Origin: a virus
Strand: one strand, 5' to 3'
IMG/VR virus record: IMGVR_UViG_3300032223_003682
Coordinates: 1 to 20,985 of that record
Length of the DNA: 20,985 nucleotides
The notes below the pieces were generated by a model. It saw only the letters and a list, made by a program, of their open reading frames with translations, was not told the DNA's origin and did no database searches. Below, piece by piece: positions 1,349 to 19,311 of the stretch. Each line of letters opens with the position of its first letter. Positions within the stretch are counted from its first letter, which is position 1. Made by a program: the position numbers and the translations under genes.

Positions 1349-3646
1349 TTATGGTTGATAAGGCGCAGCAAACACATTGGTCCCAAAGCACTTAAATGCA
1401 ACTAATCCATTTGTTAACACTACTAAATTGGTATTATTGGGGCTCCAGATCTGGGGCCAAGCAACAGTAATACCAGTGCCAAAAACAGTTGCGCCAATAT
1501 ATTTAGCATACCCACTTGATGCAACTCCAGTGGCTGAAGTGAATGTAATATTGTTGGTAATGGCAATCTCATTTAAATTAAAATTTAATACTGCTGTTGT
1601 TTGTGTAGTAGCATTAAAAATTAAATTTGCTGGGTTAAGGTTTGTTAATGCTGAACCATCTCCAATATATGTGCCGGTAAACGTGCCAGAGTAGTTGGCA
1701 TTGAGCGTGACCGGTGTATTGAAAGTCAGCGATGTCGGATAGTTTGTTCCGCCAAACACATTCAGCGCATAGGTTCCACTTGAAGTGACGGCATCGCAAA
1801 TCACACGACGAACCACGTAGAATCCCGCCGCGTTGGTCGAGGTGTATTGCTGACCGCCTGAAATCCACGAATAGGCGTTGGTGGTTCCCGGCGTGATGGT
1901 TTGTGCTGCGCCGTAAGTAATCTGTTGCAGATTGGTCTTATCATAGGTGATGTAGATGTCAGGGTCAATCTGAATGCTTGGATTTGGCCCATTGCCTGTG
2001 AAGTTCAGATAAAATGTTGAAACGAATGGACCAGACACGGACTGATAGGCATTGGTCGTTATGATGGTCGCAAAGATTTGACCAACCGTAAGATTGGTAA
2101 ATGACTTGATGTAGTTGGTCGGAGCCGTTGAGCCGAACAAAAGAGCAACCATGTTGGTGGTCGTTCCCACGCGATTCGTGATTCCGACGTTGGTGGTGTT
2201 CAAAGAGCCGTAAAGGATTTGACCGGATTTGAGAATCGAGGCGACGTAGTTTGCCGTGACTAGTTGATTGGCCGATGGACTGGCCGTATTGGTCGAGATG
2301 TCAAACACACTATTGGTGATGTAGAGTGGACCTTGAACGTAGCCTTGCACTTGCAGTGTGTTCGTGACGTAGATGGAGGGGAAGTTGGTATTGTTTGCGA
2401 TGGATGTGTTGACGAAATTCGTGGAAGCTAATCCATTGGTCAGACCGGGCAGCGAGTTCGTGTAGAGGAATACGACCGGATTCGAGTACACGACGGTCGT
2501 GAAGTTGTTCGTTGCCGCCACTACGAGGTTAGTCGTAGTAGTTAGATTCGCGCTATTGGTAGCCGAGATCTGAGTGAGTACAAAGTTTGTCGTAGCCAGA
2601 CCATTGGTGATGGAACTAGTCACGAAGCCGTTGGTCAATGCCGGCAGTGAGCTCGTGTAGAGAATGGCTGAAGGATTGGTATAGACTAGAGTCGTAAAGT
2701 TGTTCGTTGCCGCCACTACGAGGTTAGTCGTGGTCGTCAGATTGGCACCATTGGTCGCAGAGATCTGCGTCAGTACGAAGTTTGTAGTGGCTAGACCATT
2801 CGTGATCGAAGAAGTGACAAATCCATTCGTAGCATTATTGACATAGTTTGTGGTGGCCAATCCATTCGTGATCGAAGACGTAACGAAGCCATTAGTAGCG
2901 GCATTTACATAGTTCGTAGTAGCCAAGCCGTTCGTAATGCTTGAGGTAACGAAACCATTCGTAGCATTATTGACATAGTTCGTAGTGGCTAAGCCGTTAG
3001 TCACGGAAGCAGTTGCATAGTTCGAAGGATTTGAATTCAGATAGAACGCCGTCGCATTCGAATAGGCCGCCGTACCCAATCCAGCAAGATTGGTAGACGC
3101 GATGTTGGTTATTCCAGATCCGTTGCCGTAGATCACGCCGCCGATATATGCGCTGTTCGTTACGTAGATTCCTGGAAAATTGGTATTGCCAGTTGCAATT
3201 GCAGAATTGACGTAGTTCGTCGTAGCCAGTCCATTTGTAATCGAAGCCATCACGAAGCCGTTAGTGGCGTTATTGACGTAGTTAGTCGTTGCCAATCCGT
3301 TCGTGATGCTCGATGTCACGAATCCATTAGTCAGAGCAGGAAGCGAACTCGTATAGAGTATTGAACTCGGATTGGTATAGACCAGAGTCGTGAAGTTATT
3401 CGTGACGCTCTTGGCATAGTTCGTAGTGGCCAGACCATTCGTAATAGCCGATGTGACCAGACCGTTCGTAGCCGATGTGATCAGTGCATTTACCTCAGAG
3501 GTAGAATACACGACCAGACCAGTTCGAGCCGTATACGCATTGGTCGTAGTCGTCCACGGAGAAGCCGTGACCGGTGCCAAAGCGAATGCATCAAATCCCG
3601 TCATCACGAACAGCGCGACGATCAGGCCAAATATAAAGTTTCTCAT
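1349..3646 (-). CDS. Repeat-rich tail fibre-like protein with signal peptide
   Basis: A 765-residue Thr/Asn/Ala-rich repeat protein, probably a fibre. After the N-terminal 45 residues it is built from degenerate repeats of the type GLATTNYVNNATNGFVTSSITN (22 residues), plus a 65-residue unit containing LTQISATN and ANLTTTTNLV. Two stretches, YGNGSGITNI and YIGDGSALTNL, match the GxGSxLTxI signature common in phage fibres. Start choice is firm: its ATG overlaps the TGA of the previous gene (ATGA at 3643-3646), implying translational coupling. Oddly, that start gives a hydrophobic, signal-peptide-like N-terminus (MRNFIFGLIVALFVMTGFDAFA), unexpected for a cytoplasmically assembled fibre. The last ~110 codons are AT-rich, unlike the rest, suggesting an exchanged C-terminal tip. 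An exported adhesin is the main alternative. Confidence 0.75.
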   Translation of the reverse strand: MRNFIFGLIVALFVMTGFDAFALAPVTASPWTTTTNAYTARTGLVVYSTSEVNALITSATNGLVTSAITNGLATTNYAKSVTNNFTTLVYTNPSSILYTSSLPALTNGFVTSSITNGLATTNYVNNATNGFVMASITNGLATTNYVNSAIATGNTNFPGIYVTNSAYIGGVIYGNGSGITNIASTNLAGLGTAAYSNATAFYLNSNPSNYATASVTNGLATTNYVNNATNGFVTSSITNGLATTNYVNAATNGFVTSSITNGLATTNYVNNATNGFVTSSITNGLATTNFVLTQISATNGANLTTTTNLVVAATNNFTTLVYTNPSAILYTSSLPALTNGFVTSSITNGLATTNFVLTQISATNSANLTTTTNLVVAATNNFTTVVYSNPVVFLYTNSLPGLTNGLASTNFVNTSIANNTNFPSIYVTNTLQVQGYVQGPLYITNSVFDISTNTASPSANQLVTANYVASILKSGQILYGSLNTTNVGITNRVGTTTNMVALLFGSTAPTNYIKSFTNLTVGQIFATIITTNAYQSVSGPFVSTFYLNFTGNGPNPSIQIDPDIYITYDKTNLQQITYGAAQTITPGTTNAYSWISGGQQYTSTNAAGFYVVRRVICDAVTSSGTYALNVFGGTNYPTSLTFNTPVTLNANYSGTFTGTYIGDGSALTNLNPANLIFNATTQTTAVLNFNLNEIAITNNITFTSATGVASSGYAKYIGATVFGTGITVAWPQIWSPNNTNLVVLTNGLVAFKCFGTNVFAAPYQP
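2480..2830 (-). repeat. Duplicated 195-bp coding unit in fibre gene
   Basis: Two copies of a longer unit, offset by 195 bp: the shared string ctacgaggttagtcgt starts at 2521 and again at 2716. Each codes for about 65 residues including TNFVLTQISATN, NLTTTTNLVVAATNNFTT and LYTSSLP-type segments. This is a second repeat length nested in the same gene as the 66-bp repeats. Ends are approximate. Confidence 0.7.
2795..3005 (-). repeat. Tandem 66-bp coding repeats in fibre gene
   Basis: About three consecutive copies of a 66-bp unit coding for the 22-residue motif GLATTNYVNNATNGFVTSSITN. Codon-level differences between copies show divergence under protein-level constraint. Further single copies lie near 3190-3340 and 3415-3470. 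Unit boundaries are approximate, read by eye. Confidence 0.75.
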
Positions 3647-14984: not shown

Positions 14985-15518
14985 ATGCATATTTATCCTC
15001 CAAATACAGAACAGTGGCGAATCAACTTAATTGAAAATCCTCCGCCATCTTCTAAACTTTATGAGCCAGAAGAATGGAGAGATATTGTATTAAATGAGTT
15101 GCATAAACATACGCCTATGTCAGAATCAATGCGAAAAGCTATTGGTGAAACTGTAAGAGAAGTATGGAAAGATCCAGAATATAAAGCTAGAGTTGGTAAG
15201 AAAATTTCTGAAAGCCAAATAGGACGAGTAAACTCAGAGGAAAGTAATGAAAAACGAAGAAAGTCGATGATTGGTAAACGTCACAGCGAAGCATCTAAAC
15301 AGTTGATGAGATTAAAAGCTGGACATAAACATACTGATGAAACGAAAGAAAAACTTAGTATAGCCGCAAAAGGTCGACCTTTAACAGATTTACACAAAGA
15401 AAACATTCGCAATATTGCACGTGGAAGAATGCACATAACAAATGGAATAGATAATCGATTTATACCAGGCACAGAAGAAATTCCTATAGGATGGAAAAGA
15501 GGGAGAACCATGAAATGA
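14985..15518 (+). CDS. NUMOD3-repeat homing endonuclease relic
   Basis: A 177-residue protein with four NUMOD3-type DNA-binding motifs at about residues 82-152: IGRVNSEESNEKRRKSMIG, GKRHSEASKQLMRLKAG, GHKHTDETKEKLSIAAKG, GRPLTDLHKENIRNIARG. The C-terminus (ITNGIDNRFIPGTEEIPIGWKRGR) has the NGxxNxxI...EIPxGWxxGR ending found in many phage GIY-YIG/HNH mobile endonuclease proteins. No GIY-YIG, HNH or other nuclease motif is visible in the first 80 residues (MHIYPPNTEQWRINLIENPP...), so it may be a truncated relic or a stand-alone DNA-binding protein. It is clearly AT-rich, has an AGGA Shine-Dalgarno (14973-14976) unlike the virion genes, and its TGA overlaps the gp4 ATG (ATGA, 15515-15518). Confidence 0.75.
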   Translation: MHIYPPNTEQWRINLIENPPPSSKLYEPEEWRDIVLNELHKHTPMSESMRKAIGETVREVWKDPEYKARVGKKISESQIGRVNSEESNEKRRKSMIGKRHSEASKQLMRLKAGHKHTDETKEKLSIAAKGRPLTDLHKENIRNIARGRMHITNGIDNRFIPGTEEIPIGWKRGRTMK

Positions 15519-15979: not shown

Positions 15980-16561
15980 ATGGCAGACAATAATTCCATT
16001 GACAATCTCAAGGCAGCGATTACTAAAAGAAACGGACTGGCTAAGCCCACTCAGTTTCTAATCGAATTTTCCTTGCCTACGGGTGTTCGTGGAAATATAG
16101 ACGCGAGGGACCTATCCATCCTGTGTCAGACTGCGTCGCTCCCTACGCGTACCATATCGACGGTCGACTATGCAGGCACTCAGCGTCATTCGTTCAGAAT
16201 CCCGAGTGGATATACCTTTGACAATATCACCTGCACGTTCTTGGTCGGTAACGACTTCTTTCCAAAGAACCTGTTTGATAACTGGATCAATCAGTCCGTC
16301 GATCCACTCTCGTATCGCGTGAAGTACCTCGATCAGTACTCTTCGACCGTGAGGATCTATCAGTTCGATACGGAAGGCAATTTTATCTACGGCGTCAAGT
16401 TGAATCATGCTTTTCCTACAGCCATAGCATCTCTTGAATTGGATGCCGGTGCTATGGATCAGATTCATAAGCTTAATGTGACATTTTCGTATTACGACTA
16501 CGAGGTCATAAAGAATAGCGTATCAACTACTATAGCTAGCAGTCTGTCGTCTAATAAATAA
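15980..16561 (+). CDS. Tail tube-family protein (gp19/gp54-like)
   Basis: A 193-residue protein of the T4 tail-tube fold family. Features: LAKPTQFLIEFSLP near the N-terminus (T4 gp19 FARPNLFQVEISYL), CQTASLPTRTISTVDYAGTQRHSFRIPSGYTFDNITCTFLVGNDFFPKNLFDNWINQ (T4 FQCKATALPAGIVEKIPVGFMNRKINVAGDRTFDDWTVTVMNDEAHDARQKFVDW) and a closing strand LNVTFSYYDYEVI. Length is near gp19 (163 residues). Lying between gp4 and gp26/tape measure, away from a sheath gene, it could instead be the tube initiator gp54, which has the same fold and pairs with gp48. I cannot decide between major tube and initiator from sequence alone. It starts 9 bases after gp4 with no Shine-Dalgarno; CCTAAATA (6/8 late box) ends 6 bases before the ATG. 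Confidence 0.82.
   Translation: MADNNSIDNLKAAITKRNGLAKPTQFLIEFSLPTGVRGNIDARDLSILCQTASLPTRTISTVDYAGTQRHSFRIPSGYTFDNITCTFLVGNDFFPKNLFDNWINQSVDPLSYRVKYLDQYSSTVRIYQFDTEGNFIYGVKLNHAFPTAIASLELDAGAMDQIHKLNVTFSYYDYEVIKNSVSTTIASSLSSNK
16553..16560 (+). promoter_or_regulatory. Near-consensus late box before gp26
   Basis: AATAAATA (7/8), overlapping the stop codon of the tube-family gene, 25 bases before the gp26 ATG. AT-rich chance matches are possible, but it lies in the only gap between the two genes. Confidence 0.4.
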
Positions 16562-16585: not shown

Positions 16586-17302
16586 ATGTCACTACCCATA
16601 CTTGAAACACCCAAATACACGGTAACCATTCCGTCCACCAAGAAGTCCGTTGAGTATCGCCCCTACCTTGTCAAGGAAGAGAAGATCCTCATGCTCGCGA
16701 TGGAGTCCGAGGACGAGAAGCAAATGATCACGGCCGTCAAGGACATCATTCGCGCTTGCACCTTCGAGAAGCTCAATCCAGACGACCTCACGACCGTTGA
16801 CCTCGAGTACGTCTTTCTCAAACTCCGTTCTAAGTCCGTCGGCGAGATCTCTACGGTCACGCTTAAGTGTCTGAATACTGAATGTCCTGGATCGGTAAAT
16901 GCTGAGATCAATCTCGAGTCCATCGAACCTACATCTACTGGAGCGGCCGTCTCAAATCGAATTCAACTCACGGACAAAGTTGGCATGACTCTGCGACCCA
17001 TGACGGTTCGATCACTCAGTCGACTGGGCATTGAAAGCAAGTCGAAGAGCGAACAGGTCACGGCCCTCATCGTCTCGTCCATTGAGTCCATCTTCGATGA
17101 GAACGGCGTGTATCGTGGAGAAGATCACACGATCGAGGAGCTCACGGCATTTGTCGACTCGCTATCGACTTCCCACCTTCAGAAGATTCAGGCCTATGTT
17201 GAGTCCCTCCCTCGCCTGACTAAAGACCTCGAGTACATCTGTCCCAAGTGCAAGATCAAGCATAAGATCACCCTGGCTGGCCTACAAAGTTTTTTCGCCT
17301 AG
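16586..17302 (+). CDS. gp26: Baseplate hub assembly protein gp26
   Basis: A 238-residue protein of the T4 gp26 / T4_baseplate family (T4 gp26 is 208 residues), required for hub assembly. Family pattern: the N-terminal IPSTKKSVEYRPYLVKEEKILMLAMES (15-41), CTFEKLNPDDLTTVDLEYVFLKLRSKSVGE (58-87) with the DxxxLxxFDIEYLFLxLRxKSxGE-like signature, and two cysteine pairs, C95/C100 and C219/C222, that look like a C4 zinc site closing before the end. The gene ends with LAGLQSFFA and TAG at 17300-17302. The last Ser-Phe-Phe codons contain a canonical -1 slippery heptamer, and the -1 frame continues for 69 codons, so this is probably the short form of two products. It is followed directly by the tape measure. 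Confidence 0.9.
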   Translation: MSLPILETPKYTVTIPSTKKSVEYRPYLVKEEKILMLAMESEDEKQMITAVKDIIRACTFEKLNPDDLTTVDLEYVFLKLRSKSVGEISTVTLKCLNTECPGSVNAEINLESIEPTSTGAAVSNRIQLTDKVGMTLRPMTVRSLSRLGIESKSKSEQVTALIVSSIESIFDENGVYRGEDHTIEELTAFVDSLSTSHLQKIQAYVESLPRLTKDLEYICPKCKIKHKITLAGLQSFFA

Positions 17303-17409
17303 GCCTCTCCCACGATACGCTCGCCAATCACTATACCGTGAACTTCGAGATGGCGCAGCGGCATGGATACAGCCTCACGGAACTCAATGAGATGCTGCCG
17401 TGGGAGAGG
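17290..17409 (+). promoter_or_regulatory. Programmed -1 ribosomal frameshift signal
   Basis: Slippery heptamer T_TTT_TTC at 17290-17296, in the correct phase with gp26 codons AGT TTT TTC; both tRNAs can re-pair with TTT TTT. A 7-base spacer that includes the gp26 TAG follows. Then CCTCTCCCACG (17304-17314) is perfectly complementary to CGTGGGAGAGG (17399-17409): 11 bp, 8 of them G-C. The 84-base loop may fold further. A competing 6-bp stem GGCCTA (17279-17284) / TAGGCC (17300-17305) would enclose the slip site itself. Confidence 0.75.
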
Positions 17410-17505
17410 GAGATATATGTCGCCCTCCTGATCGATCACATCAAAAAGGAGAACGAGAGGCAGAAGAAAGAAGTCGAAGCCATAAATAGTAAATACAAAG
17501 TATAA
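17296..17505 (+). CDS. -1 frameshift extension of gp26 (GT-like)
   Basis: A 69-codon open frame, -1 relative to gp26, ending with TAA at 17503-17505, 6 bases before the tape-measure ATG. It begins at the slip site: RLGLSHDTLANHYTVNFEMAQ, then RHGYSLTELNEMLPWEREIYVALLIDHIKKENERQKKEVEAI. Protein-like character starts immediately at the slip point, before any start codon. In-frame GTG (17338) and ATG (17350) exist but would delete the first part and have no ribosome site. The LxxMLPWEREIYxxLLxxxIKxEN pattern recurs, as I recall, in small genes next to gp26 in other T4-like phages. Frameshifting at 17290-17296 would give a 306-residue gp26 fusion with a charged helical tail, comparable to lambda gpGT just before the tape measure. 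Internal initiation is the alternative. Confidence 0.78.
   Translation, partial: RLGLSHDTLANHYTVNFEMAQRHGYSLTELNEMLPWEREIYVALLIDHIKKENERQKKEVEAINSKYKV
17481..17488 (+). promoter_or_regulatory. Near-consensus late box before tape measure
   Basis: CATAAATA (7/8) on the plus strand, inside the last codons of the gp26 -1 extension, 23 bases before the tape-measure ATG. Could give the tape measure its own late start. Confidence 0.4.
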
Positions 17506-17511
17506 ACTAAT

Positions 17512-19311
17512 ATGGCAGGATATAAGACGACAGACATCGCGGCTCTTATCGCAGATCTTAAAGATGCGTCTGCCGAACTTAAAGGAATAGAAGGCGTCGA
17601 GGCTTTCAAGGGCATCGCCGATTCTCTTGCTAACTTCGCGCGCATCAACTGGAAAACATTTGCAAAAGATGCCTCAGAGGGTCTTCAGAGATTTGCCGAT
17701 CTTGGCGGAAAAGACGGAGCACTCAGTAAAGCGGCTGGTGCAATTACTGGATTAGGTAAAGCTTCTAAAGGAAATACTTCGGCTCTCATTGAGCTCTCTA
17801 AAGGACTGTCTGAATTTGCGCAAATTGAATGGGCTTATCTTGCAGATGGACTTGTACAGCTTACGGCTCTTAAAGATGCCTTTAAAAGTGCTGCGCCTAG
17901 CATCAAGCAATTTGCCGCTTCAGTTAAAGGCCTAAAGAAATCTGAAGAAGACTTCAAATCATTTAATGCATTATCTGAAGCTCTAAGTTCTTTTGCCAAT
18001 GTTGAGTGGGAAGGAGTATCTGAAGGCTTTACGCAGTTGGCGAAATTAAGTAAATCATTTAAGGGGGCTGCAAAAGGCATCAAAGAATTTGCCGCTTCAG
18101 TTAAGGGTCTAAGCGAGTCCGAAGAAGACTTTAGATCATTTAGCACACTATCTGAAGCTCTAAGTTCTTTTGCCAATATCAATTGGGCAAATGTAACAAA
18201 GGGCATGCTCATGATGTCCATATTGCCTAAGCTGATTCGTATGGCGGCTAGCGGATTTGCTGCAGCCGCACAAGCCGTCGCAGGATTGGGTGTGCATAAG
18301 GAATCATTTAGTGCTCTTAATGCCTTGATGACGGCTCTAAGAAACTTCTCTGAGATCAATTGGAAAGACGTATTCTACGGGCTGATCGCACTAAGAGCAA
18401 TGTCTGGCCTCTTTGGAGGATTCGGTAAAGCTGTCGACACGTTAGGCCAGGCGATCGGATCTGAAGAATCCAAAGCGACTATCGAGTCGTTTCACATGTT
18501 TGTCTCAGCGCTCTCAGAGTTTGGTCAGATCTCTTGGGGTAAGGTGCTCCTCGGTCTTGGCATCATGAAGCTCTTTGGAGGAATGCTCAAGTCATTTTCC
18601 GCGATGGCGGGTCCTCTCAATGCGACCGTGAAGATGCTCAAGACATTTGCTCGAGGCTTGGGTATGGCCGTCACGGAGCTCGGAGCGGCTGCTACCAATC
18701 CTATCTTTTGGATTGGTATGGCCGCGCTCGCCTCCTTCGGCTTCGTTCTACTTGAATTTGGTGCGGCATGTGCTCTCGCTGGTGCTGGTGTATTGATGCT
18801 CGCCTTTGGCTTTGAACGCCTGTTAAAGAGCGCCTTTGAAGGCATCGGTAAGCTCGTAGAATTGGCTGATAATGCGCCGGCACTGTTTAAGGCCGCAGCT
18901 GGTATTACGGCCATCTCGGCAGCGCTGGTTGCCTTCGGTGTCGCTTCAGCCGCTTCTGGAATTGGCGGCGCGATCGGTGGAATACTCGGCAAGATAACCG
19001 GTTCGAGCCCCATCGACCAGATCTTAAAGCTCGCTGAAGCTTCCGATAAGCTTGATAAGACGGCGACGGCCCTCGAACGAATCAATAAAGCCATGTCTGG
19101 CATGCCTTCATCGGCCGGAATGGATCTAAGTGCTGGTGGCGCACAGGGAGCCGAGCTCGCCTCTCAACGCGGAGTTGCAGGCGCAGGTGGAATGGGAGCC
19201 ATGATTAAGACCGGCGCGAAGAACATCTCGAATAAGGTCTCTTCCGTGGTCGTCAATAATGGCTGGATGCCTGATCGCTCTACGGCTCTGATCCTCGCTC
19301 CTGCTATGTGA
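17512..19311 (+). CDS. gp29: Tail tape measure protein (gp29-like)
   Basis: A 599-residue Ala/Gly/Leu/Lys-rich helical protein whose length matches T4 gp29 (590 residues), so the tail should be of T4-like length if the usual proportionality holds. It carries six repeats of ~59 residues, each with F-[AGS]-x-[IV]-x-W: positions 42, 102, 161, 220, 279 and 337. Repeats 3 and 4 are also nearly identical in DNA. Residues ~396-440 (NPIFWIGMAALASFGFVLLEF..., ALAGAGVLMLAFGF) and ~462-495 are strongly hydrophobic, as expected for the part that enters the membrane at injection. The assignment rests on composition, repeats, length and position after gp26, not on direct alignment with gp29. No Shine-Dalgarno. 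It ends TGA 5 bases before the terminator hairpin region. Confidence 0.85.
   Translation: MAGYKTTDIAALIADLKDASAELKGIEGVEAFKGIADSLANFARINWKTFAKDASEGLQRFADLGGKDGALSKAAGAITGLGKASKGNTSALIELSKGLSEFAQIEWAYLADGLVQLTALKDAFKSAAPSIKQFAASVKGLKKSEEDFKSFNALSEALSSFANVEWEGVSEGFTQLAKLSKSFKGAAKGIKEFAASVKGLSESEEDFRSFSTLSEALSSFANINWANVTKGMLMMSILPKLIRMAASGFAAAAQAVAGLGVHKESFSALNALMTALRNFSEINWKDVFYGLIALRAMSGLFGGFGKAVDTLGQAIGSEESKATIESFHMFVSALSEFGQISWGKVLLGLGIMKLFGGMLKSFSAMAGPLNATVKMLKTFARGLGMAVTELGAAATNPIFWIGMAALASFGFVLLEFGAACALAGAGVLMLAFGFERLLKSAFEGIGKLVELADNAPALFKAAAGITAISAALVAFGVASAASGIGGAIGGILGKITGSSPIDQILKLAEASDKLDKTATALERINKAMSGMPSSAGMDLSAGGAQGAELASQRGVAGAGGMGAMIKTGAKNISNKVSSVVVNNGWMPDRSTALILAPAM
17909..18177 (+). 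repeat. Recent 177-bp duplication in tape measure
   Basis: Two adjacent units offset by 177 bp. Bases 17972-18000 are identical to 18149-18177 (29 bases), and 17909-17927 to 18086-18104 (19 bases, starting aatttgccgcttcag). This is a much younger copy event than the other four protein-level repeats. Confidence 0.8.

Follow-up and report, generated by a model that had tools for sequence, protein, structure and literature searches.

A putative −1 frameshift signal with a covarying downstream stem between gp26 and a gp51-like extension in an environmental T4-like virus

Does the gp26 gene of this uncharacterised environmental virus end in a programmed −1 frameshift of the kind known from lambda gpG/gpGT, whose slippery heptamer is GGGAAAG? 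A preliminary description of the DNA had proposed that it does and that the product is a GT-like fusion encoded just ahead of the tape measure. The question has some weight for T4-type phages, as a 2016 review describes G-T frameshifting as widely conserved "except T4" (PMC5009743). We analysed the window, that is, the whole IMG/VR record of 20,985 bases, which is probably a fragment, together with relatives of its gp26 locus. The features on which the argument depends are as follows.

15980..16561, + strand: upstream tail-tube-family gene, given as context (phrog_45 tail tube, 4.6e-42)
16586..17302, + strand: gp26, putative TAC-N / G-like protein, 238 aa, zero frame (PF12322 T4_baseplate, 7.2e-55; phrog_150, 1.9e-60)
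17290..17296, + strand: slippery heptamer T_TTT_TTC in the gp26 phase (read from the sequence; all 310 frameshift-type loci have T_TTT_TTN, as do 99/99 non-redundant relatives, a set preselected for it)
17296..17505, + strand: −1 frame extension, putative TAC-C / T-like domain (gp51 in cyanophage annotations), 69 codons plus stop (phrog_634, 3.9e-25; dN/dS)
17297..17303, + strand: 7-nt spacer from heptamer to stem (read from the sequence; equal distance in all gap-free aligned relatives)
17300..17302, + strand: gp26 zero-frame stop TAG, one codon past the slip site (read from the sequence)
17304..17314, + strand: 5′ arm of the putative stimulatory stem (synonymous sites covary with the 3′ arm at 17304-17409 and 17307-17406)
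17399..17409, + strand: 3′ arm of the same stem, with a loop of 84 nt between the arms (same covarying pairs; sole RNAalifold helix in 70 relatives)
17512..19311, + strand: tape-measure protein gene, 599 aa, directly downstream (phrog_4372 tail length tape measure, 5.5e-10)

The elements named in the preliminary description were all confirmed from the sequence: the phase of the heptamer, the 7-base spacer, the perfect 11-bp stem and the 69-codon −1 frame. The 3′ end of gp26 reads CAA AGT TTT TTC GCC TAG, which places T_TTT_TTC in the correct X_XXY_YYZ phase relative to gp26, and 17399-17409 matches the reverse complement of CCTCTCCCACG (17304-17314) at every base. From 17296 to 17502 the −1 frame is open for its 69 codons (RLGLSHDTLANHY...NSKYKV), with its stop at 17503-17505, and gp26 and the extension together sit between the tail tube gene and the tape-measure gene. 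Elsewhere in the window, an ORF with a NUMOD3 motif at 14985-15518 (PF07460, 1.9e-7; phrog_314 homing endonuclease, 1e-8) overlaps the start of a gp4-like head closure gene at 15491, and a 765-aa ORF at 1349-3646, made of repeated TNGLATTNYVN-type units and lacking a Pfam match, is possibly a fibre or adhesin-like repeat protein.

Our reading is that gp26 is very probably a short tail assembly chaperone and that a −1 slip yields a minor gp26–gp51-like fusion, following the lambda G/GT strategy. Most ribosomes would terminate at 17300, and a fraction would slip −1 on T_TTT_TTC as tRNA-Phe re-pairs in the P and A sites, aided by the stem 7 nt past the heptamer and, in many relatives, also by an upstream Shine-Dalgarno-like stretch. 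The slipped ribosomes would produce gp26 fused to a 69-residue gp51-like domain, and the short form and minor fusion would then coat the tape-measure protein and recruit tube subunits, like lambda G and GT. We infer frameshifting in vivo and its efficiency from the sequence; the role of the pair as tape-measure chaperones is suggested by homology, gene order and the literature.

Both frames encode recognizable proteins. gp26 scored 186.5 bits against PF12322 (curated cut-off 24.5) and covered positions 2-219 of the 219 in the profile. The −1 extension matched positions 58-117 of phrog_634, the gp51 family annotated "baseplate hub assembly catalyst", as well as the C-terminal region of phrog_150 (235-278 of its 282 positions), past the point at which short gp26 ends. 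Over the DNA of the extension, the −1 frame had a median dN/dS of 0.058, compared to 1.63 for the zero frame; the −1 frame evolves as a protein does. AlphaFold predicted a confident fold for gp26 (pLDDT 89.9) and two long helices for the extension (80.3). Searches by sequence and by fold returned no significant relative of gp26 among solved structures, the HK97 chaperone 2ob9 appearing only at an E of 6.6, and the matches from a fold search of predicted viral structures were gp26-type, other baseplate or unnamed phage proteins.

The preliminary description had suggested searching gp26 homologues for a conserved heptamer followed by a −1 ORF. Relatives were retrieved with gp26 peptides that exclude the slip site. 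A first scan found an in-phase TTTTTT[CT] and a −1 extension at 80/80 loci, and T_TTT_TTN was in phase at 310 of the 318 loci whose gp26 end was intact. The same loci recur across scans, and the fair sample is a set of 99 sequences below 90% identity; all 99 keep the six-T slip, its phase and the −1 extension, although this set was preselected for the slip and for a P[WF]E motif at a constant position, which leaves 310/318 as the unbiased count. The eight exceptions are named genomes that were fetched deliberately (T4, Cronus, avDM3, RB43, three Ackermannviridae and Vibrio K444), and the first four are of a two-gene type. Named phages with the slip include KVP40-like phages, Emmerichvirinae, cyanophages, and Pelagibacter and Rhizobium phages; in Pootjesviridae it takes the form T_TTT_TTG. 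The gp26 stop begins 7 or 10 nt past the start of the heptamer in 306/310 loci, and an ORF of tape-measure size lies no more than 30 nt away in 71 of the 75 relatives in which this could be checked.

One alternative is that the −1 ORF is an independent small gp51 gene, translated from an internal start or by termination-reinitiation. This is how public records tend to present it: cyanophage, Pelagibacter, Aeromonas and Rhizobium phage records either give the extension as a separate small gp51 CDS that starts at or after the slip, as in many cyanophage records, or omit it, and in a few groups the gp26 stop overlaps a start codon as TAATG or TGATG. Against this, 77 of the 99 relatives have no ATG, GTG or TTG in the −1 frame ahead of T codon 4, and this scarcity of starts makes an independent gene unlikely. 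The first Met codon of the window's −1 frame is the 19th, at 17350, so that initiation there would lose the conserved LSHD start; in the relatives the first Met is likewise usually at index 18-19, within the conserved domain. An independent gene also offers no coding reason for the invariance of the heptamer: within the 99-sequence set, the first F codon is always TTT (66% elsewhere in the same genes) and the codon preceding it always ends in T (53% for N/S/D/A codons elsewhere). In addition, T4, Cronus, RB43 and Campylobacter phages encode the long form as one in-frame fusion. We therefore rejected the independent gene, mainly for its lack of starts, and regard it as very unlikely.

The three Ackermannviridae (L089 2280-2320, L091 2290-2330 and L092 2285-2325) are a separate observation. 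The end of gp26 lacks the six-T heptamer, and directly past the gp26 stop the −1 frame encodes a T-like domain (MPWHLDMLTETLK...; T profile 8e-7 to 2e-5); the sequence at the stop is ATTTTCATTTAATTTTTG or, in Ds20CZ, a TAATG overlap. A different joining or reinitiation mechanism may therefore operate in these phages.

A second alternative is that the two frames are joined by transcriptional slippage on the T run rather than by ribosomal slippage. There is a T run at the joint, and it contains at least seven T in about a third of loci. However, the run in the window is six T, and transcriptional slippage usually involves longer runs (runs of 9 in PMC5009743). The last base of the heptamer varies among C, T, A and G while the phase is kept, and a stem that covaries and sits at a constant 7-nt distance is in keeping with a ribosomal stimulator. 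We consider transcriptional slippage extremely unlikely, and ribosomal −1 slippage remains our preferred reading of the joint.

The evidence for the stem comes from two pairs of third codon positions. Among 66 relatives, 34 have C-G and 22 have T-A at 17307-17406, where the third bases of a Leu and a Glu codon pair; at 17304-17409 (Gly and Arg), C-G occurs in 45 and T-A in 13. In the 99-sequence set, the two pairs ranked 5 and 3, respectively, of 8385 by corrected mutual information; after correction for GC3 they ranked 1 and 2 of 903 third-third pairs, with r of 0.56 and 0.52 compared to 0.37 for the next-best pair. For 70 LSH-type relatives, r rose to 0.75 and 0.66. On a tree built from the upstream gp26 protein, 17307-17406 showed 10 co-changes versus 2.9 expected and had the top z among 946 pairs; 17304-17409 showed 3 versus 1.3. 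Such compensatory changes in the two arms are what the preliminary description had looked to, naming their absence as grounds against the frameshift. Because these synonymous pairs are the top two in covariation after GC correction, we conclude that the stem is real and under selection.

Other measures gave the same helix. RNAalifold, run on the 70 relatives, returned no helix besides 17304-17314/17399-17409, with a consensus energy near zero. Within the stem, 89.5% of cells were paired, compared to 43-72% when the arms were slid, and shuffling the arms among relatives reached the observed pairing in 0/2000 trials. The window's own fold had an energy of −44.6 kcal/mol (z −2.57), and its inner helices were set aside as not conserved, with 39-54% of cells paired in the relatives. 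No Rfam family reached its gathering score at the slip and stem site. The GGCCTA/TAGGCC stem that had been suggested to compete around the slip site (−7.2 kcal/mol in the window) was not borne out in relatives: it lacked significant covariation, with 4.44 of 6 positions paired versus 4.36 after its arms were shuffled among relatives, and 128/2000 shuffles were as good.

It could still be argued that the arms of the 11-bp stem are conserved solely as code for the protein motifs LSHD and PWER and have no function as RNA. Both arms do lie in conserved codons, and most of their pairs vary little. This explanation is hard to reconcile with two silent third positions whose partners, 99 and 105 nt apart, switch jointly between C-G and U-A, which lead the third-third pairs with GC controlled and of which one co-changed ten times on the tree. 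We judge conservation for protein alone to be unlikely, and favor a stem that acts as RNA. Nevertheless, several cyanophages and other groups retain the slip with a weak stem or none; the stem is thus not essential to the strategy and is confined to part of the family.

The Shine-Dalgarno-like signal upstream of the heptamer is best described as a tendency. Across the relatives, 12-nt windows beginning 15-18 nt before the heptamer had a mean anti-SD energy of −6.0 kcal/mol, compared to about −0.7 elsewhere, and 80% of relatives reached −4 kcal/mol or lower at the appropriate distance. A nearly invariant Gly accounts for most of this signal, and silent codon choice adds to it (observed −6.1 versus −4.96 for synonymous recoding; Wilcoxon 3e-8 with relatedness ignored). 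The match in the window itself is weak (−3.3 kcal/mol). Since the conserved Gly explains most of it, we set the element aside as a firm part of the signal. Overall, the proposed −1 frameshift with a GT-like fusion is strongly supported by the conserved slip, frame, extension and stem, together with the location ahead of the tape measure.

How, then, does T4 manage without a frameshift? The preliminary description had taken T4 gp26 to lack such a fusion. This holds in that T4 has no slip site, its gp26 and gp51 genes lying on opposite strands; what it missed is that the long form exists as a separate paralogue, gp51. Both T4 proteins match the full PF12322 model (8.8e-64 for gp26 and 3.9e-52 for gp51) and they align with each other at 2e-6. 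T4 gp26 covers positions 14-235 of phrog_150, and gp51 covers 13-280 and additionally matches phrog_634 at its C-terminus. By these matches, gp26 is the short form in T4 and gp51 the long form, and T4 does without a frameshift because the two forms are two paralogous genes. The 2022 abstract by Vladimirov and colleagues reportedly names T4 genes 26 and 51 and is said to describe the frameshift as kept in several T4-like groups.

Erwinia phage Cronus has a short/long two-gene arrangement like that of T4. In RB43 (L102 1501-2794), the long gp51-like gene and the short gp26-like gene form a tandem on one strand, whereas the T4 pair is divergent; the RB43 arrangement is a possible step in a switch between frameshifting and duplication. 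In Campylobacter phage WX1 (L097 856-1596), the one form seen was the long, in-frame fusion, which lies next to a terminase gene and has a family of its own (phrog_23772). Within the 20,985-bp record, which is probably a fragment, we found one PF12322 gene and no second one with an in-frame T domain, and hence not the two-gene arrangement of T4.

The frameshift also explains a published observation, namely that cyanophage gp51 reaches only ∼20% of the T4 gp51 length, the first ∼200 residues being absent (Sullivan 2010, PMC3037559): cyanophage gp51 is the frameshift tail of gp26 and not a shrunken gene. If so, the annotation of gp26 and gp51 as separate hub proteins in hundreds of phages is probably wrong. 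T4 relatives of the one-gene, frameshifted type and of the two-gene type form a natural comparison, in which a recoding event and a gene duplication replace each other, and the stem provides a testable handle on the ratio of short form to fusion.

The preliminary description left it as unknown whether such a frameshift had been described. It had: as relayed by the papers that cite it, a 2022 study reported tail assembly chaperones of T4-like phages made by frameshift in some and from separate genes in others (Vladimirov, Gautam & Davidson 2022, Virology 566:9-15, PMID 34826709; via PMC10885494 and PMC12846349). Some T4-like phages have one short and one long gene (PMC10885494, citing Vladimirov 2022), and poly-T slips are known in their TAC-N genes (PMC12846349, citing Vladimirov 2022). 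A frameshifted T4-like tail chaperone is therefore not new after that work. The conserved long-range stem together with the upstream Shine-Dalgarno-like bias is possibly new, and novelty is likeliest for the covarying stem; no description of it was found in the literature searched, in which Vladimirov et al. 2022 is represented by its citing papers. We would give even chances to the proposal that the 84-nt-loop stem, 7 nt past the slip, and the Shine-Dalgarno-like element form a conserved and hitherto undescribed stimulator, which sets the gp26/gp26-51 ratio across a large T4-like clade.

Comparison with known systems places the locus as follows. It shares with the chaperones of Vladimirov 2022, as these are described in the citing papers, the short and long forms that arise by poly-T frameshift or from separate genes; it differs from that account in the uncharacterised environmental virus, the covarying 3′ stem and the upstream Shine-Dalgarno-like bias. 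T4 gp26/gp51 likewise comprises short and long forms, each with full-length PF12322, but has two genes on opposite strands and no slip site. The E. coli dnaX cassette resembles the locus in its slip heptamer, downstream stem and, for many relatives, upstream Shine-Dalgarno-like stretch, whereas here the slip is six T instead of six A, the loop is 84 nt, the window's Shine-Dalgarno-like match is weak and the product logic differs. With lambda gpG/gpGT the locus has in common a −1 slip where the first gene ends, a predicted minor fusion and a position directly upstream of the tape measure (PMC5009743); the heptamer is different, a conserved 3′ stem is found in this virus, and the likeness does not extend to a detectable sequence relation.
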